A stretch of DNA of 64,000 nt from positions 3,763,501-3,827,500 of the forward strand of contig JAFCIZ010000001.1 of assembly GCA_017871115.1 (NCBI GenBank), read 5' to 3'. Source of the DNA: Cunninghamella blakesleeana. Taxonomy: Eukaryota > Mucoromycota > Mucoromycetes > Mucorales > Cunninghamellaceae. Positions 5,135 to 15,638 of the stretch are shown here, piece after piece. The notes under the pieces are model-generated. The model saw nothing but the letters and a program-made list of their open reading frames with translations, had not been told where the DNA came from and ran no database searches. The position numbers and the translations under genes are program-made. Every line of letters starts with the position of its first letter. The stretch's first letter is position 1.

Positions 5135-6256
5135 CAGTGGGGGAAAAAACTGTTCGGACGTTTCCAAAATTTGACTTTGTTCTTTAATTACTCTATCAAT
5201 ACTTTATCAACCCTTATGAAACTTAGAATAGTAATAGAATAGCTTATTTATAAATATATTACAAAGTTTGAGTTTAAAATATTTAGATCTCCGGTTTTTA
5301 TTAAGGTTTTAAACAGCGATGTCTATTCGAACAGTTTTTTCCAATTTCTAATTAATTAACTAATATCTTGTTGGTCCGCCTTTAGCATCCAGTACAGCTT
5401 GAATACGATCAGGCATACTATCTATGTATCTTCTACATTGTTCCTGTGTAAAAGAATTCCATTCTACATCAATTCTTTCCCATAATTCGTGAACACCTTT
5501 AGCCCTGGTACTGTATTCACTAAGCTTTAACTTCAAATGGTGCCACACATGTTCAATTGGGTTTAAGTCAGGACTTTGAGCCGACCAATCTTCAAGTATT
5601 TTTATCTTTTCTTGTCGCATCCATTCAATAGTAGATGTTGCTTTATGTTTTGGGTCGTTATCCTGTTGAAAATAATACTCTGACCAGTCAAAACCATAGT
5701 ATTCCATGCTATCTCTGAATGTAGTGTTCAAAATTTCTTGGTAATCCTTAGCTTTCATAGTCCCATCGTAAACTTGACATGCATATCCTGGTCCAGAATG
5801 AGTTATACAACCCCACATCATTATATTTCCACCCCCATGCTTGACTGTTAAATCAAGATGATGAGGCTTCAATTTGTCACCTGGTCTTGACCAATAATAT
5901 TTGCAGCCATCAGACCCCCAGACGTTTATTTTGGTTTCGTCAGAGAATACTACACGTCTCCAGTCATCAATAGTCCAGTTTTTGTATCTTTTTGCAAAGT
6001 TTAAACGGTCCTGTTGATGCTTTTTTGACAAAAGTGGCTTCTTTTTTTTAATAGCAGAAAAAAAATTCATAGATTTTAAAACATTAGCCGATGTTTTGAC
6101 TGTCAATTCATATCCTAGGTTCGATAACATCCTTTGGACATCCGTGGCAGTTAGTAGTTGACCTGATAGAACCATTTTTTTGATGAGAGATTTAGTTTTG
6201 TCGGCTACAACAATAGGTCTTCCACCAAGATTACGGTTTCTATTAGGGAACCACTT

Positions 6257-7937
6257 ACAGTGGCTTCCAGAAGTGTTCGAATGTTTTCGTTTTTTTTATA
6301 AAATCAATTGTATCAATAAAACTTATTATTTAACCATGCATGATTTATACATCAATCGAAAGCCCTATTGATTGGCTTTCATATGAATATATTTATATGC
6401 ATTTCCATATTTGGGTTGCGGAGTAAATGGTGTTTGAAAATTATTGGTACATTCGAACAGTTGTGTTGCGATGCCAAAAAAATACCACAACTTGTAATAA
6501 AACAATAATAGAGTATAAAATAACCTATAAAATGTTAGAATAAACCTGTTTCGCACTTTCTTAGTTCAAATCTATAGCTAATATTCTATTTTTTATATAT
6601 TTTTTATATCAATATTGTCCATTTTTTAGTGATCTGTTATCAACATGCGTCCTATTCAAAATTCCATCAAGAACCAAGTCATTAACCTTCTCAAACAAGG
6701 TAAATCTATGCGTCAAGTAGCAAAGGATGTTGGTGTAAGTTGTACAACTGTCCACAAGTACTCTGCAGGTCTTGAACGGGAGATTCCTATGGCTGTTGGT
6801 GGTGCTGTATCCAAGCTCACTGGTAGAGACAAGTCCTTTTGTGTACATCAAGTGACCAAAGGAGGTAAAAGTAATGCTACTGAGGTGCAGAAGGCATTAA
6901 AGCAACATTTGGAAATCGATATAAGTGCTCAAACAGTCCGTAGAGCACTTAAAGAAAAAGGATTAGGGTCCTTTGTCAAGCCAAAGAAACCTCTCCTCAG
7001 TGCCAAAAATGTTAAAGCTCGTTTAGCTTGGGCAAAAGCACACAAAGATTGGACTTTGGATGACTGGAGTCGTGTCATTTGGTCAGACGAAACCAAAATT
7101 AATCGTTTTGGATCGGATGGACGCCGCTATGCTTGGAAAAGGGCCGAGGAAAAGCTTCAACCTAAACATGTCAAGCAAACAGTCAAACATGGTGGTGGAA
7201 ACATAATGATTTGGGGATGCATTTCGTACGATGGCCCGGGTTACATGACTAAAATTGATACAGTTTTAGATAAGGAACTCTACCAAGCTATTTTGGAGCA
7301 TGAATTAGTGCATACATTTGACTGGTATGGCATGGATCAAAGCAAAATGGTCTTTCAACAAGATAACGATCCAAAACACACAGCCAAAGCAGTCAAAGAA
7401 TACTTGGAAAACCAGCCTTTTTCGGTAATGGAATGGCCTGCACAGTCACCTGACTTGAATCCCATTGAGAATATATGGGCTTTGGTGAAAAACAGACTCT
7501 TTAGCAACTATACTACACCACCAAAAGGGATGTTAGACTTGTGGGACCGTACTCAGGAAGTATGGAATACAATCACGGCTGAAGATTGTAAAAAAGTGAT
7601 AGAAACAATGCCTAAACGTTGTAATGATGTAATAAAAGCAAAGGGCTATTGGATTGATTATTAAATAAAGACTTTTTGTACCATTTATATTGTGTTTTAA
7701 TTATATTTTTAATTTTTTTGGTATCGCAACACAACTGTTCGAATGTGCCAATAATTTTCAAACACCATTTACTCCGCAACCCAAATATGGAAATGCATAT
7801 AAATATATTCATATGAAAGCCAATCAATAGGGCTTTCGATTGATGTATAAATCATGCATGGTTAAATAATAAGTTTTATTGATACAATTGATTTTATAAA
7901 AAAAACGAAAACATTCGAACACTTCTGGAAGCCACTG
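6257..7937 (+). mobile_element. Tc1-family element M1 (TTCGAA-site version), intact
   Basis: A 1681-bp element flanked by TA (6255-6256 and 7938-7939). Terminal repeats are about 219 bp, starting CAGTGGCTTCCAGAAGTG. Outer and inner sites share GTTCGAATG in opposite orientation at both ends. It is inserted in the transposase of M3, so it is younger than M3. The transposase ORF is uninterrupted, so the copy could be autonomous. Confidence 0.93.
6645..7664 (+). CDS. Tc1-like transposase of M1 (DD34E)
   Basis: This 339-residue protein would bind the element's terminal repeats and carry out TA-targeted cut-and-paste transposition. The N-terminus holds a paired-like bipartite DNA-binding region. 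Its first helix-turn-helix is at about residues 8-45 (QVAKDVGVSCTTVHKYSAG) and the second at about 60-110 (SAQTVRRALKEKG). The catalytic triad is in VIWSDETKIN, VFQQDNDPKH and PDLNPIENIW, with 34 residues between the second D and E, the Tc1 spacing. A GGG-containing loop (KHGGGNIMIWG) lies between. The length is normal for the family. The product differs from that of M2 (9369-10388) at only five residues, four of them in the first recognition helix. The ATG lies about 170 bp inside the end of the left terminal repeat. Confidence 0.95.
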   Translation: MRPIQNSIKNQVINLLKQGKSMRQVAKDVGVSCTTVHKYSAGLEREIPMAVGGAVSKLTGRDKSFCVHQVTKGGKSNATEVQKALKQHLEIDISAQTVRRALKEKGLGSFVKPKKPLLSAKNVKARLAWAKAHKDWTLDDWSRVIWSDETKINRFGSDGRRYAWKRAEEKLQPKHVKQTVKHGGGNIMIWGCISYDGPGYMTKIDTVLDKELYQAILEHELVHTFDWYGMDQSKMVFQQDNDPKHTAKAVKEYLENQPFSVMEWPAQSPDLNPIENIWALVKNRLFSNYTTPPKGMLDLWDRTQEVWNTITAEDCKKVIETMPKRCNDVIKAKGYWIDY

Positions 7938-8479
7938 TATTAGAATAGGAGCTAATGGTACTTTTTGATAAGTTAAGTCTACTGGAAATGATACTGTATG
8001 GTATTTCATTGATCAACATTGCTTTTAAATCATTTTGGACATCTACAGGTAAAGCTTGAGGCATCTTGTTTAATGGATAAAGTGAATAGGTAGTTTAATT
8101 GAAGTGATAAAGAAAAGTGAAAGAAAATAAAAAAAAATAAACTGAAAAATAATGGTTTAAATAGTTTTTCGGAATGCATTTACATTAGTAATTATTATTC
8201 TATACTTTCCGAACCAATAATAGTAGGTAAAATGGGAAAACAGAACGAAAATGCTTAATATTCACATTATGGAAAAAACTGTTCGAATAGACATCGCTGT
8301 TTAAAACCTTAATAAAAACCGGAGATCTAAACATTTTAAACTCAAACTTTGTAATATATTTATAAATAAGCTATTCTATTACTATTTTAAGTTTCATAAG
8401 GATTGATAAAGTATTGATAGATTAATTAAAGAACAAAGTCAAATTTTGGAAACGTCCGAACAGTTTTTTCCCCCACTGT

Positions 8480-9095
8480 AAATCAGCTGAATTACCAATT
8501 ACATTTTTAAAAGAAACAGATAAGCCGTTAGTTACAATTAAATCAATTAATATTAAATATCAATCTGCAAACTCAACACAAGATAATACAACAAAGGATA
8601 CTAACGAAATAGATAATAATTTTGATACAACAAATAGTGATCTTGAAACAACAACAGACACTGAAACTGATGATGATTGGGAACATGATGAATACTCTGA
8701 TGAAGAAAATTATTATATGGAAGATGACGTTAGAATTAATATTGATCGTAATCAAAATGAAAATAGTTTAATTATATCTACTGGTATTCAAGGGATGACC
8801 ATACCTCCTCATACAAATTGTCAATTCTATGTAAATCCTTCTATGCATACATCTGAACCTATACTTCTTACTCAAGATGATCAAAATGCTATTGCTAATC
8901 CAAACGAATTTACATTAAATTTAATTAATAGATCTGATAATGATATTGATTTACCACCTCATCATATAATTAGTGAATATTATAATTTAATGAATAATGA
9001 ATGTGTATTAGAAGCTGATGATCTGAAAGGTTATGATATAGTTGAATCACTTGACATGAATGGATTAACAGAAGAATTATTTAATATTGATAATA
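8480..9095 (+). pseudogene. pol: C1 pol fragment (between protease and reverse transcriptase)
   Basis: The sequence is almost identical to C2 pol at about 54556-55170. It covers the segment after the protease (KSAELPITFLKETDK), the acidic linker, and the region ending TEELFNIDN. Only one substitution is obvious at the start (Gln for His). The frame is open throughout. It begins at a TA next to M3 and ends at a TA next to M2. Reverse transcriptase and RNase H are missing: the sequence right of M2 is already integrase. It is the remnant of element C1, whose integrase, ORF4 and 3' LTR lie to the right. Confidence 0.9.
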
Positions 9096-10775
9096 CAGTG
9101 GCTTCCAGAAGTGATCGAATGTTTTCGTTTTTTTTATAAAATCAATTGTATCAATAAAATTTACTATTTAACCATGCATAATTTTTATATCAATCGAAAG
9201 CTCTATTGATTGGCTTTCATATGAATATATTTATATGCATTTCCATATTTGGGTTGCGGAGTAAATGGTGTTTGAAAATTATTGGCACATTCGATCACTT
9301 GTGTTGCGATACCAAAAAAATTAAAAATATAATTAAAACACAATATAAATGGTACAAAAAGTCTTTATTTAATAATCAATCCAATAGCCCTTTGCTTTTA
9401 TTACATCATTACAACGTTTAGGCATTGTTTCTATTACTTTTTTACAATCTTCAGCCGTGATTGTATTCCATACTTCCTGAGTACGGTCCCACAAGTCTAA
9501 CATCCCTTTTGGTGGTGTAGTATAGTTGCTAAAGAGTCTGTTTTTCACCAAAGCCCATATATTCTCAATGGGATTCAAGTCAGGTGACTGTGCAGGCCAT
9601 TCCATTACCGAAAAAGGCTGGTTTTCCAAGTATTCTTTGACTGCTTTGGCTGTGTGTTTTGGATCGTTATCTTGTTGAAAGACCATTTTGCTTTGATCCA
9701 TGCCATACCAGTCAAATGTATGCACTAATTCATGCTCCAAAATAGCTTGGTAGAGTTCCTTATCTAAAACTGTATCAATTTTAGTCATGTAACCCGGGCC
9801 ATCGTACGAAATGCATCCCCAAATCATTATGTTTCCACCGCCATGTTTGACTGTTTGCTTGACATGTTTAGGTTGAAGCTTTTCCTCGGCCCTTTTCCAA
9901 GCATAGCGGCGTCCATCCGATCCAAAACGATTAATTTTGGTTTCGTCTGACCAAATGACACGACTCCAGTCATCTAAAGTCCAATCTTTGTGTGCTTTTG
10001 CCCAAGCTAAACGAGCTTTAACATTTTTGGCACTGAGGAGAGGTTTCTTTGGCTTGACAAAGGACCCTAATCCTTTTTCTTTAAGTGTTCTACGGACTGT
10101 TTGAGCACTTATATCGATTTCCAAATGTTGCTTTAATGCCTTCTGCACCTCAGTAGCATTACTTTTACCTCCTTTGGTCACTTGATGTACACAAAAGGAC
10201 TTGTCTCTACCAGTGAGCTTGGATACAGCACCACCAACAGCCATAGGAATCTCCCGTTCAAGACCTGCAGAGATATTGTGAACTGTTCCATAGCTAACAC
10301 CAACATCCTTAGCTACTTGGCGCATAGATTTACCTTGTTTGAGAAGGTTAATGACTTGGTTCTTAATGGAATTTTGAATAGGACGCATGTTGATAACAGA
10401 TCACTAAAAAATGGACAATATTGATATAAAAAATATATAAAAAATAGAATATTAGCTATAGATTTGAACTAAGAAAGTGCGAAACAGGTTTATTCTAACA
10501 TTTTATGGTTTATTTTATGGTCTATTATTGTTTTATTACAAGTTGTGGTATTTTTTTGGCATCGCAACACAAGTGATCGAATGTGCCAATAATTTTCAAA
10601 CACCATTTACTCCGCAACCCAAATATGGAAATGCATATAAATATATTCACAAGAAAGCCAATCAACAGGGCTTTCGATTGATGTATAAATCATGCATGGT
10701 TGAATAGTAAGTTTTATTGATACAATTGATTTTATAAAAAAAACGAAAACATTCGATCACTTCTGGAAGCCACTG
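9096..10775 (-). mobile_element. Tc1-family element M2 (ATCGAA-site version), intact
   Basis: A 1680-bp copy of the same family as M1, inverted, flanked by TA at 9094-9095 and 10776-10777. Outer and inner sites in both terminal repeats read GTGATCGAATG, where M1 has (G/C)TGTTCGAATG. The left flank is C1 pol and the right flank is C1 integrase. A single insertion could not give that, so the region was joined by recombination between two insertions. The transposase ORF is intact. Confidence 0.93.
9369..10388 (-). CDS. Tc1-like transposase of M2 (DD34E), variant recognition helix
   Basis: 339 residues, identical to the M1 transposase except at five positions. Four of these fall in six residues of the first helix-turn-helix, where M2 reads SYGTVHNIS and M1 reads SCTTVHKYS. 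The fifth is Thr for Ala in RRTLKEKG. The DD34E catalytic residues (VIWSDETKIN, VFQQDNDPKH, NPIENIW) are unchanged. At the DNA level the patch at 10272-10296 differs from M1 at about 10 of 25 bases, including silent ones, while the rest of the gene is nearly identical. It therefore looks like a transferred segment rather than point mutation. The family role is terminal-repeat binding and TA-targeted transposition. Confidence 0.95.
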   Translation of the reverse strand: MRPIQNSIKNQVINLLKQGKSMRQVAKDVGVSYGTVHNISAGLEREIPMAVGGAVSKLTGRDKSFCVHQVTKGGKSNATEVQKALKQHLEIDISAQTVRRTLKEKGLGSFVKPKKPLLSAKNVKARLAWAKAHKDWTLDDWSRVIWSDETKINRFGSDGRRYAWKRAEEKLQPKHVKQTVKHGGGNIMIWGCISYDGPGYMTKIDTVLDKELYQAILEHELVHTFDWYGMDQSKMVFQQDNDPKHTAKAVKEYLENQPFSVMEWPAQSPDLNPIENIWALVKNRLFSNYTTPPKGMLDLWDRTQEVWNTITAEDCKKVIETMPKRCNDVIKAKGYWIDY

Positions 10776-10848
10776 TATAAGTTTAATATTTATCACCAAA
10801 CCTTAAGACAAGTATTAAATAAACAAGAAGCCATAGAAGCACTTTATA

Positions 10849-12507
10849 CAGTAGGCAGCAAAATTGTTCACATGTTTTTGATTTTTATGAAAAATTGATT
10901 TTTTATAAAAATACTATTAATTGATGATAGCTGCTTCTTATATTGTTAGAAAGCCCTGTTTAATGTGTATCTCTCTCTATATGTTACACTTTTGTATCAC
11001 TTGTAGTTTGGCAGTAATAGGAGTTTAAAAACTGTCGCATCACTTGAACAATTTTGCTGCCGAGTTCTAAAAAATAAAAATTAGTCACAAGAGGCTTGTA
11101 AATGTTACTGAAAACCTTTTATTTTTAATTTTTTTTAAAAAAATAACTTTTCCCTTTTGTTTACTTTGTATATTTATTTATTTTTTACAAAATAATACTA
11201 TAAAATTTTAGATTTTTGTCACCATGAAGCCAATTAGCAATGAAATGGATCGTATTGTAATTATGCACCTTGGTAAAGGTCTGTCTGTTCGCCAAGTAGC
11301 TAAATTAACAAAGGTTAGTATAGGAAGAGTTCAAAAAACACGTTCAACAATGTTAAATTTTGAAAAAATTAATAATCCTGGTCGGCCATCCTTACTTACT
11401 AGCCGTGAACATCAGTATAATGTGCGTTCTATCACTAAAAATGGAAACGATAATGCTGTCCAGGTCATGAATTCATTAAAATCAGACTTGAGTATCAATG
11501 TTAGTGTTGATACTATCCGCCGCAGCTTAAAAAAATCAGGGTTAAAAGCGTTTGTTAAACCAAAAAAACCGCAGGTATCTGAAAAAAATCGTAAGTTACG
11601 ATTAGAATGGGCACAGGATCATAAGGAGTGGACTATTGATGACTGGAAACGAATTATTTGGTCAGATGAAACAAAAATAAATCGGTTTGGCTCAGATGGA
11701 AAACTGTATGCGTGGAAAAGACCACACGAAAGTCTTCAAAAACGTCATGTAAGAGAAACGGTAAAAGGTGGTGGTGGAAGTATTATGGTATGGAGCTGCA
11801 TTACATGGGAAGGTGTCGGGTATATCGTCGATGTAACGTCTCATATGAATAAAGAAATATATCTTTCTACTTTACAAGATGATTTAATCAATACAGTTGA
11901 CGATTACAATATGGATTTAAACAAAATTGAATTTATGCATGACAATGATCCAAAGCATACATCAAAAATAGTGACAGAATGGCTTGCTGAACAACCATTT
12001 AAGGTGATGAAATGGCCTCCTCAATCACCAGATTTGAATCCAATTGAAAATATGTGGGCTATACTAGAAAGAAAACTATTTAAAAACTATGAATCTCCTC
12101 CAGCTGGCATGAACGACCTCTGGGAAAGGATCTCGGAAACTTGGTATAGTATTACTAAAGAAGAGTGCATGAAATGTATCGAAACCATGCCTAAACGTTG
12201 CCAAGAAGTTATTAAAAACAAAGGGCTATGGACCAAATACTAGTTTATTATATATTTTTTACATATTTTTATAAATAAAGCATTTTTTTTAATCGGCAGC
12301 AAAATTGTTCAAGTGATGCGACAGTTTTTAAACTCCTATTACTGCCAAACTACAAGTGATACAAAAGTGTAACATATAGAGAGAGATACACATTAAACAG
12401 GGCTTTCTAACAATATAAGAAGCAGCTATCATCAATTAATAGTATTTTTATAAAAAATCAATTTTTCATAAAAATCAAAAACATGTGAACAATTTTGCTG
12501 CCTACTG
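10849..12507 (+). mobile_element. Tc1-family element M5, intact
   Basis: A 1659-bp element flanked by TA (10847-10848 and 12508-12509) inside C1 integrase. Terminal repeats are 214 bp each (10849-11062 and 12294-12507) and near-perfect. The outer site is CAGTAGGCAGCAAAATTGTTC. An inner copy of GGCAGCAAAATTGTTCA lies at the inner edge in opposite orientation. The repeats agree closely and the ORF is intact, so the insertion is probably recent. Confidence 0.93.
11224..12243 (+). CDS. Tc1-like transposase of M5 (DD34E)
   Basis: 339 residues, the same length as M1 but clearly divergent, with an N-terminus MKPISNEMDRIV and a first helix-turn-helix around VAKLTKVSIGRVQKT. A short basic hinge (NNPGRPSL) leads to a second helix-turn-helix (SVDTIRRSLKKSG). 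The catalytic core shows IIWSDETKIN, EFMHDNDPKH and PDLNPIENMW, with 34 residues between the second D and E. It would transpose M5 into TA sites. The ORF is complete, starts at the only suitable ATG after the left repeat, and ends about 50 bp before the right repeat. Confidence 0.95.
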   Translation: MKPISNEMDRIVIMHLGKGLSVRQVAKLTKVSIGRVQKTRSTMLNFEKINNPGRPSLLTSREHQYNVRSITKNGNDNAVQVMNSLKSDLSINVSVDTIRRSLKKSGLKAFVKPKKPQVSEKNRKLRLEWAQDHKEWTIDDWKRIIWSDETKINRFGSDGKLYAWKRPHESLQKRHVRETVKGGGGSIMVWSCITWEGVGYIVDVTSHMNKEIYLSTLQDDLINTVDDYNMDLNKIEFMHDNDPKHTSKIVTEWLAEQPFKVMKWPPQSPDLNPIENMWAILERKLFKNYESPPAGMNDLWERISETWYSITKEECMKCIETMPKRCQEVIKNKGLWTKY

Positions 12508-13865
12508 TATGTATCATCAACATCCTTTAGGTGGTCATATAGGTTATCACAATACTTTATATAAACTATCTATAAGATATTATTGGGATGGCATGGCAAA
12601 AGATATACAAATATATATAAAAAAATGTCCAAGATGTCAATCAACTGGTTCAAGAAAGTTAAATGAATTCTTATATCCAATACCTGTCAAGTCAAAACCT
12701 TTTGAACAATGGGGATTAGACGTTAAACATGTTCCCACATCTAAAGGCGGTTATAGATATATTATTGCAGGAATAGATTATTTAACAAAATGGGTAGAAG
12801 CGCGTGCGCTACGTTATCAAACTACATCCGAAGTTGCTTTGTTTATTTATGAAGAAATAATATGTCGGCATGGTACTCCTCATTTAATTATAACCGACAA
12901 TGGTAAACCATTTATCAGTGACCTTATAAAGAAAGTTTGCTATCAATATAATATTCATCACAACACAATCTCAGTTGGAAATTCTCAAGCCAATGGATTA
13001 ATTGAAAAATTTAATTCTACACTTGGGTCTATTATAAAAAAGGTAACTTCCACGGAAAAATCAATATGGGACCAATATCTACCATCAGTTCTATTTGCTT
13101 ATCGTTCAATCAGACAGGCATCTACTCAACAATCACCATTCTTTTTAACTTACGGATATAATGTTAAAACCCCGTTCGATCAACATGACAAACCTATAGA
13201 TTTTAATTCTTATAATTTTGATACACAATTAAAATTACGTACAAATAAGGAAATTATATCACTCAATCAGATAAGATCGACAGCTGCAAAAATGATAGAA
13301 AAATCTCAAGAAAACCAAAAACGGGCTATTGATAAAAAAGTTTTAAACAGTAATAGAGAATGGAAACCAGCATTTAGAATTGGGGATATAGTAACTTTAT
13401 ATACTGGTATAAAATCAAATTCTTGGTCTGGTAAGATTTCCGATATGTGGCAAGGAAAATATACAATACATCAATCACTTGGAAAAGGCACGTATATAAT
13501 AAAATCCTTGGATACAACAAGAACAAAATTAAGAAGAATACACGGAAACAGACTAAAAATATTGCAATTACCAGATGTATATTGGAATAATCACGTAAAT
13601 AAAACCTATGGATTGGACATATAAAAAAAAAAAAAAAGAGATAATAATGAAATATATAAATATAATTAATAATGAAATTTAAAATATTAATTCACGTGTT
13701 TACCCGAAGAAGAATTTATATAATAACTACATTAAAATAATATACATAAAAGATAAACATAAACCAAAAAAAAAAAAAAAAAAAAGGAAGAACCAAAAAG
13801 ATGATTACAAAAAAAAAAGAAGTATATTTTTCAAACTACGAAAAAAAAGAAAAAATATATATATA

Positions 13866-15521
13866 CACCTCGGTCCAAAATGCCCAAGTGTTTACATTTT
13901 TTTTTTTTTTCGAAATAATTCAAGTTAATTTCTATATTAAATATGTGTATATACTACATGAATATAATGTCCTAGTAATTGTCCTTTTATATTAAAAGCA
14001 CTATGTTTATATACATATCCAGTCCCGCGTAATATATTGCTGAAAAAAAAAATTCATTTGGGCAATTTTGAACCTTGGTGCCCAAAAAAAATTTTTTTTT
14101 GAAAAATAGGTTTTATTGGTTTATGCTTTTTATATAAAATATGGTCGTTATCGGAGAATTACTTTTTCTTCATTTCTTTCTTGAATATCTAGTTTTTTTT
14201 TTTTTTTTTTTAAATTAATTGATCTCTAATTTCGTAATTTCGACATTTCACAATGCACCCAATTAACAAAGCAAAGAAGTCAGACATAATAGTAGCTTTG
14301 CAACATTGCGAACCACACAGAGATATAGCTCGTAAATTTAAAGTTTCTAAAGGAACAGTATTAAACATTAGTAAGACTTTAAAGAACATTCCTAAAAATA
14401 ATGCTGGTCGGCCACATAGAATCTCTAAGGAATGCGAATCTCATTTGGTGACATCTTTCCAGCGAGGAAAATTAATGAATACAGTAGAAGCAGTAAAGTC
14501 CATAGGACGTAGTTATAATGTTAAAGTTAGCAAATCAACAATTCGTAGGGTACTTGTTGGGAAGGATTTGGTTGCACGAAAAAAAAAAACGGTTCCTCCA
14601 CTAACTAAGAGCACCAAACGAAAGCGCCTAGAATTTGCTAAAAGGTACAAGGATTGGGGAGAAGCGGAGTGGTCAAAGGTTATCTTCGCAGATGAAAGTA
14701 GAGTGAATCGTTTTGGTGATGACGGCAATTTATGGACTTGGGGGAAAAAGAATGTACCTCGACAAGACTTTTCTTTCTCCGAGGTGCCAAAGGGGTTTGG
14801 TGGTTCAATTTCCGTTTGGGGCTGCATCACTGCTAAAGGTGTAGGCTTTTTATCACGACTACATTCCTACATGGATACTCCATTATTTCTAGAAATAATG
14901 GATGATGAATTCATAAAGACTTTGGATTGGTATAACTTTGACAAAAGTCACGTTTTACTTTTGCAAGACAACGATCCTAAGCATAAATCTATTGCATCCC
15001 AAAAATGGTACCAGAAGCATAATGTAGAATTATTATATTGGCCAACATACTCTCCAGATTTAAACCCAATAGAGAATATGTGGTCATTACTTAAGCAACA
15101 GCTGGTGAAAAACTATGATGAACCAGCTAAATCACTAGATGAACTATGGGAACGTATTGAAGTGATTTGGGAAAGTAAATATATGAATGATATGGCAATT
15201 AAAGTCGTTAATTCAATGCCACACAGATGTCAATTAATAATAAAAAATAAAGGTGGTCGTATCCCTTATTAGTAGCTTTAGATAAGAAGAAATGTCATGT
15301 ACACTACTCTTTTTTATTTTATTTTTTTTAATAAAAAATTTAAATGTGGTATATTGAAGCCATGCAATAGTGTATTCTCACAATTGTTATTCATGGATAG
15401 ATAGAGCTTTATTAGTGCTACACAATATACATTAGCTGTTATAGATTTATTAATAAATATTTAAATGAAATACAAAAAATATTAAAAATTGCAAAACACT
15501 TGGGCATTTTGGACTGAGGTG
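13866..15521 (+). mobile_element. Tc1-family element M4, short terminal repeats
   Basis: A 1656-bp element flanked by TA (13864-13865 and 15522-15523), lying between C1 integrase and C1 ORF4. Terminal repeats are only about 28 bp (CACCTCGGTCCAAAATGCCC; the right end reads CACCTCAGTCC in complement). The left side has an inner, inverted version of the site near 14060-14085. I cannot find the matching inner site on the right. Confidence 0.88.
14253..15272 (+). CDS. Tc1-like transposase of M4 (DD34E)
   Basis: 339 residues opening MHPINKAKKSD. The first helix-turn-helix is at about residues 12-45 (DIARKFKVSKGTVLNISKT), followed by a basic GRPHRIS hinge and a second DNA-binding segment (SKSTIRRVLVGK). 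Catalytic residues are in VIFADESRVN (first D), LLLQDNDPKH (second D) and PDLNPIENMW (E), with 34 residues between the second D and E. ADESR in place of the SDETK seen in the other three families marks it as a separate lineage. It is full length with no break, and it is the transposition enzyme for M4. Confidence 0.95.
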   Translation: MHPINKAKKSDIIVALQHCEPHRDIARKFKVSKGTVLNISKTLKNIPKNNAGRPHRISKECESHLVTSFQRGKLMNTVEAVKSIGRSYNVKVSKSTIRRVLVGKDLVARKKKTVPPLTKSTKRKRLEFAKRYKDWGEAEWSKVIFADESRVNRFGDDGNLWTWGKKNVPRQDFSFSEVPKGFGGSISVWGCITAKGVGFLSRLHSYMDTPLFLEIMDDEFIKTLDWYNFDKSHVLLLQDNDPKHKSIASQKWYQKHNVELLYWPTYSPDLNPIENMWSLLKQQLVKNYDEPAKSLDELWERIEVIWESKYMNDMAIKVVNSMPHRCQLIIKNKGGRIPY

Positions 15522-15638
15522 TATATATAAAAAAAAAAAAAAGAAAAACTTTCATTCACATATTCACATTTTCTTTTGAAAATCTTTTAACAATACAAAA
15601 ACACTTATTTTAATAATACAAAAATATATTTTTATAAA

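Follow-up and report, generated by a model that had tools for sequence, protein, structure and literature searches.

Two complete Tc1-like transposons, M1 and M2, lie close together in a 64,000-nucleotide stretch of Cunninghamella blakesleeana DNA (contig JAFCIZ010000001.1, positions 3,763,501 to 3,827,500), the whole of which is referred to here as the window. Each measures 1680 bp between its TA duplications and carries a transposase gene of 1020 bp that encodes 339 amino acids. The domains PF13358 (DDE_3) and PF01498 (HTH_Tnp_Tc3_2, HTH being helix-turn-helix) were found above cut-off in both. Among 60 aligned sequences D240 and E275 are invariant, with 34 residues between them (the DD34E spacing), and D148 is nearly invariant. 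The terminal inverted repeats (TIRs) of their family, designated M, are about 250 bp long and hold a repeated site, outer and inner, at both ends of the element; TA flanks both sides in all 42 complete copies. By domain and structure M1 and M2 are ordinary Tc1 members, and they have the DDE_3 and HTH_Tnp_Tc3_2 domains, the TA duplication and the long TIRs with two sites each in common with Tc1-like (DD34E) elements that possess Sleeping Beauty-type repeats. The positions of the features are given in Table 1.

Table 1. Features of M1, M2 and M0 in the window.
Feature	Position in window	Strand
M1, complete Tc1-like element, helix H1 (SCTTVHKYS), four sites TGTTCGAATG, TA both sides, inside M0	6258..7937	+
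M1 transposase gene, 339 aa (HTH1, HTH_Tnp_Tc3_2, DDE_3)	6645..7664	+
M1 recognition-helix patch, codons 31-39	6737..6760	+
M1 outer site, gene-start end, TGTTCGAATG	6274..6283	+
M1 inner site, gene-start end	6450..6459	-
M1 inner site, gene-stop end	7736..7745	+
M1 outer site, gene-stop end	7912..7921	-
M2, complete Tc1-like element, helix H2 (SYGTVHNIS), four sites TGATCGAATG, TA both sides	9096..10775	-
M2 transposase gene, 339 aa	9369..10388	-
M2 recognition-helix patch	10273..10296	-
M2 outer site, gene-start end, TGATCGAATG	10750..10759	-
M2 inner site, gene-start end	10574..10583	+
M2 inner site, gene-stop end	9288..9297	-
M2 outer site, gene-stop end	9112..9121	+
M0, family N element split by M1; N1-type sites TGTTCGGACG (outer), TGTTCGAATA (inner)	5135..8478	-
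M0 recognition-helix codons 31-40 (NLSKSTISSY)	7945..7974	-

The initial annotation described the two transposases as differing at five residues, four of them in one helix of the first HTH, with about 10 base differences, silent ones included, in the corresponding patch of the gene. This was confirmed. The helix residues are C33Y, T34G, K38N and Y39I, the fifth difference is A101T, and 10 of the 17 base differences between the genes fall within 24 bp (coding positions 93-116, codons 31-39), four of these being silent. Such clustering has a P of ~1e-13 if the 24-bp window is fixed beforehand and of ~1e-10 when about 1000 windows are allowed for, and is not due to chance. The sites had been reported to change in step with the helix, and the variable base is indeed T in M1 and A in M2 at both outer and both inner sites; the inner sites, however, are told apart by two bases, reading CTGTTCG in M1 and GTGATCG in M2. 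That the pair differs almost only in helix and sites did not hold, as the TIRs are 91-92% identical and also differ outside the sites.

Copies of the helix were sought by pattern throughout the 31.9-Mb assembly (12 contigs), with up to three mismatches allowed. Family M yielded 55 helix copies in three versions: H1 (SCTTVHKYS) in 42, H2 (SYGTVHNIS) in 8, one of which carries G34R (SYRTVHNIS), and H3 (GYGTVQKYS) in 5. H1 goes with TGTTCGAATG, and both H2 and H3 go with TGATCGAATG. The outer end site had 118 matches in the genome at no more than two mismatches, and among the 100 listed the variable base was T or A. The sites were read at fixed distances in all 55 copies, the outer site being unreadable at the set distance in 4 of them at the 5' end and in 10 at the 3' end. 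At the 5' outer site T was present in 39/40 H1 copies and A in 11/11 H2 or H3 copies (Fisher 2.5e-10, a value that treats the copies as independent, which they are not); at the 3' outer site the corresponding counts were 35/38 and 6/7. The 42 complete copies comprised 32 H1 copies with four T, two H1 copies with one unreadable inner site, four H2 copies and one H3 copy with four A, and three exceptions. Helix version is thus linked to site version across the family, as the initial annotation had proposed, and the many mismatched copies that would have refuted the proposal were absent: among the 55 there were one full mismatch and three copies with a foreign end.

A comparison of the 34 complete H1 copies of T type with the four H2 copies of A type revealed 26 fixed differences: the left TIR has 6 of them, codons 26-39 have 11 and the right TIR has 9. 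The 925-bp body between them (element positions 504-1428) contains none, and its polymorphisms are common to both classes. Of the 15 fixed TIR differences, six fall within the four sites or on a base directly adjoining them. When the H1 copies of T type were compared with the one complete H3 copy that has four A sites, 37 fixed differences were found, none of them between positions 499 and 1477. The H3 copies have their own 5' untranslated region (UTR) and gene start (positions 357-450), unlike H1 and H2.

Alleles of the body recur across these classes: Q87E, W136*, D148E, A249T and A101T were each found with more than one helix version. A101T was considered as part of the switch and rejected, because it occurs with all three. 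W136*, a TAG stop at codon 136, is present in 8 H1 copies and 1 H2 copy of the 42 complete ones, which suggests that copies moved in trans, or that the stop, once formed, was spread by conversion. Linkage was expressed as r2 over 25 distinct family M haplotypes. The helix had a mean r2 of 0.53 with the left TIR (at a distance of 354 bp), of 0.50 with the right TIR (1085 bp) and of 0.05 with the body (460 bp). With the outer sites, the 11 helix sites gave values of 0.48-0.81, and the 21 body sites, which lie between the helix and the right end, did not exceed 0.21; seven upstream sites between left TIR and helix (374-411) reached 0.35 with the left outer site and 0.10 with the right one. Linkage disequilibrium is therefore low across the body and rises again at the opposite end, which fits a recombining body with helix and ends kept together, and not an effect of distance alone.

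M1 sits inside M0, a member of a second family, N, that is 43-46% identical to family M and has a 350-aa open frame in copies other than M0. The family N helix occurs genome-wide in 31 copies, 16 of version N1 and 15 of version N2. N1 has the helix SKSTISSYS and sites of the TGTTCGG type (TGTTCGGACG outer, TGTTCGAATA inner); N2 has SKGVISNYS and sites of the TGTTCAT type (TGTTCATACG outer, TGTTCATATG inner). All 59 outer sites in the genome carry GG (30) or AT (29) and no other letter pair. Helix and site match at 26 of 27 readable 5' ends (Fisher 7e-7), the exception being C3:331874. At the 3' end all 21 copies with a site at the exact distance match (Fisher 3e-6), and 10 of the 31 copies have no site there. 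Among these 10 is the N2 copy C3:200316; the 3' site closest to it, of GG type, belongs to the end of an adjoining N1 copy. Fixed differences, determined for three N2 and seven N1 copies (4 to 7 N1 copies per position), number 29: 10 in the TIRs, 10 in codons 31-40, 2 in the rest of the gene (codons 263 and 267, four N1 copies) and 7 in the 5' UTR. Codons 31-40 thus hold 10 of the 12 coding differences, and all 10 TIR differences are inside the binding sites. Because the TIRs outside the sites are without fixed difference in the copies compared, family N is the cleaner case. Six of the seven 5' UTR differences form a block at 231-256, just inside the left TIR and outside the recognised sites, which is possibly regulatory.

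Family O, a sequence of which lies inside one N1 copy, served as a control. Its 19 helices and 38 outer sites were uniform as far as found, with patterns that allow three mismatches and that a very different version could escape. Both its helix (SKGVISKYA) and its site (TGTTCACGTG) are nearer to those of N2 than to those of N1, and this likeness suggests that N1 is the changed version in family N. The helices of family O and N2 are similar in protein and differ in codons, so family O was discarded as a recent source of the N2 helix at the DNA level. The Q-family copy C3:324085 was also set aside; its first residues differ and its helix is the same.

In a predicted structure (mean predicted local distance difference test 85, predicted template modelling score 0.61) the first HTH consists of helices at residues 6-17, 22-29 and 33-42. 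With the third of these spanning residues 33-42, the helix patch is placed by the model at the start of the third, or recognition, helix. H2 and H3 differ at residues 32, 37, 38 and 39. Since they have Y33, G34 and the A-type site in common, and H1 has C33 and T34, comparison of the versions makes residues 33-34 the most likely determinants of the choice between T and A. A change between S or T and G at position 34 (35 in family N numbering) is seen in both families. For the Sleeping Beauty PAI domain a published passage on docked models places the third helix in the major groove and names R36, S37, Q40, T41, R44 and K45 (PMC11754664). A profile of 60 relatives aligned residues 2-49 of the M transposase with residues 7-54 of the PAI chain 2m8e, a weak match (E 0.039). 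We take the first four PAI contact residues to correspond to positions 33, 34, 37 and 38 here. No special hypervariability of the helix was detected among 106 relatives with a readable N-terminus, taken from the 120 listed of 7022 found: positions 33, 34, 38 and 39 rank 40th to 128th of 339 in entropy.

We consider it probable that a single recombining family of Tc1 type includes both M1 and M2 and is divided into matched helix/site specificity classes. Helix and sites are linked, the fixed differences between H1/T and H2/A copies are confined to the ends and the helix, body polymorphism is shared, and the coupling recurs in family N. The third helix of the first HTH would read a site of about 10 bp that is present four times, outer and inner at both ends, and the helix and its sites would mostly be inherited as a co-adapted set. 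The body of the transposase would meanwhile be swapped from class to class, with gene conversion or template switching in the repair of an excision gap as the probable route; exchange by conversion or by excision-gap repair from another copy is established behaviour of cut-and-paste elements, and by analogy is the route expected here. The same kind of coupled change would have been made in family N. To judge from the sequences, the helix changes presumably alter the binding preference, and selection presumably keeps the sets matched. Opinion is evenly balanced on a wider proposal, in which Tc1 elements of this genome split repeatedly with gene flow, the co-adapted helix and four sites switching as a unit and defining the types, the catalytic body being a shared recombining pool and residue 34 (S/T versus G) acting as a natural switch in two families.

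Several observations weigh against the existence of matched classes. The A-type haplotypes are few (among complete copies, four H2 and two H3). Nine of the 15 fixed TIR differences in family M fall outside the sites, the differences of H3 from H1 extend to the 5' UTR and to codons 7-26, and the two complete H3 copies differ from the four H2 copies at four body sites. The transposase may, moreover, work in trans, as the W136* copies suggest, which would weaken selection on each copy. Finally, helix and sites disagree in four M copies and one N copy. C3:217333 has an H1 helix with four A sites; its ends are A-type and its 5' UTR is H3-like, and it has the H1 state at 11/11 diagnostic positions in the tract 447-498 and the H3 state at 16/22 outside it. 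C8:2655 is an H1 copy with T/A ends whose right TIR is identical to that of H2 copies, and C10:858879 is H3 on the left with A/T ends, its right TIR being an exact match to the one in H1 copies. The partial copy C10:653322 combines H1 with an A right end, and C3:331874 combines an N1 helix with one AT end. Copies in which helix and sites are separated therefore exist, but they are rare. The three complete mosaics are single-copy, but so are all six complete H2 and H3 haplotypes, and seven H1/T haplotypes recur; the idea that their single-copy state hints at immobility was dropped, and the copy number of the mosaics says nothing about mobility.

The initial annotation had regarded the M2 patch as a transferred recognition helix, acquired by an M1-like gene from another element, with the ends changing to suit it. 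Ten changes in 24 bp, four of them silent, agree with such a transfer, and C3:217333 shows that a stretch which includes the helix is able to move. Direct support was lacking, however, as no other source of the patch was found: a genome search with the 24-mer at up to three mismatches returned eight places, all of them family M H2 copies, and M2 residues 15-56, used as a protein query with nine candidates scored, gave only P0001, which has the M1 helix. In family N, too, the N2 helix resembles that of family O in protein and not in codons. H1 has HKYS in common with P0002, a 71% relative, which does not settle the direction. Transfer is thus doubtful, although conceivable, and the silent differences in the patch fit equally well with old alleles that were left while the rest was homogenised. 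Nor were a parent family and a direction of split borne out. There are three helix versions, two of them on one site type, and the bodies recombine.

Homogenisation could also have been neutral. Old subfamilies would then have diverged throughout, conversion would have evened out the body in tracts ending where divergence was greatest, at the helix patch and the TIRs, and the linkage would be leftover ancestry without selection for matching. Exchange between the classes is evident, silent changes do cluster in the helix patch, and the fixed TIR differences of family M that lie outside the sites are what such a history would leave. In the copies of family N that were compared, on the other hand, none of the 10 fixed TIR differences lies outside the sites, so that there is no general divergence; the differences coincide in two families with binding sites and with residues expected to contact DNA, and family O varies in neither helix nor site. 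This history is rather improbable. It would be more surprising still, and is judged very improbable, if the association were a coincidence, with helix changes that are neutral or act on protein stability and site changes that record nothing but the history of the copies. Each family alone contains few independent lineages; yet the changes occur in two families, at positions of the helix where contact with DNA is expected, and at all four sites.

How a DNA transposon changes the ends that it recognises, a step that must involve the transposase and four sites together, is an open question that is usually viewed across long divergence. The classes described here are closely similar, being separated by about 4-6 helix residues and by 1-3 bases per site in two families, and natural recombinants serve as controls. 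Such close classes make a switch of end recognition directly testable, could provide a compact code of site recognition by Tc1 helices and offer candidate separate transposase/end pairs. In contrast to Tc1-like (DD34E) elements generally, several helix/site versions coexist here in one otherwise shared family. The fungal Tc1 DD34E element Tc1-MP1 of Mucor piriformis, which has Rhizopodaceae/Mucoraceae relatives, is of similar length, 1,688 bp against 1,680 bp, and encodes a protein of 434 aa against 339 aa, a comparison made by description and not by sequence; the available passages of its report describe no helix/site classes (PMC9977792). The divergence of mariners has been attributed to loss of recognition between transposase and ends (Lampe et al. 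2001, cited in PMC4161770), and a passage of the citing paper states that a TIR difference of at least 16% is able to preclude binding (PMC4161770). There too, end recognition keeps lineages that share a genome apart (PMC4161770); here, in contrast, the elements are near-identical, a few helix residues and 1-3 bases per site differ, and the bodies recombine. No report of coupled helix/site versions within one Tc1 family was found among the titles and abstract beginnings of the open-licence PMC literature.

Some further arrangements of these elements were observed. Two tandem units of 1016 bp, made up of the right part of the element from codon 85 to its end, follow a complete M element at C2:1424441-1428142. 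At C1:1209846-1213197 and C3:168015-171366 an M element lies inside another at about the same point, the host resuming at codon 85 with the same 1016-bp step; this point may be one of repeated insertion and a source of the tandem units. Four identical M1-type elements are spaced about 4.5 kb apart at C2:20064-37607, interleaved with family O helices and ends. Positions 10846-12510 and 13858-15529 of the window are occupied by two more elements of Tc1 type that belong to other families: M3, which has the helix SIGRVQKTR, and M5, which has SKGTVLNIS. Reading frames of the long terminal repeat retroelement type (about 370 aa, 1069 aa and 437 aa) repeat across much of positions 18500-62400, and the one set of these that was tested contains protease, reverse transcriptase and RNaseH as well as integrase domains.

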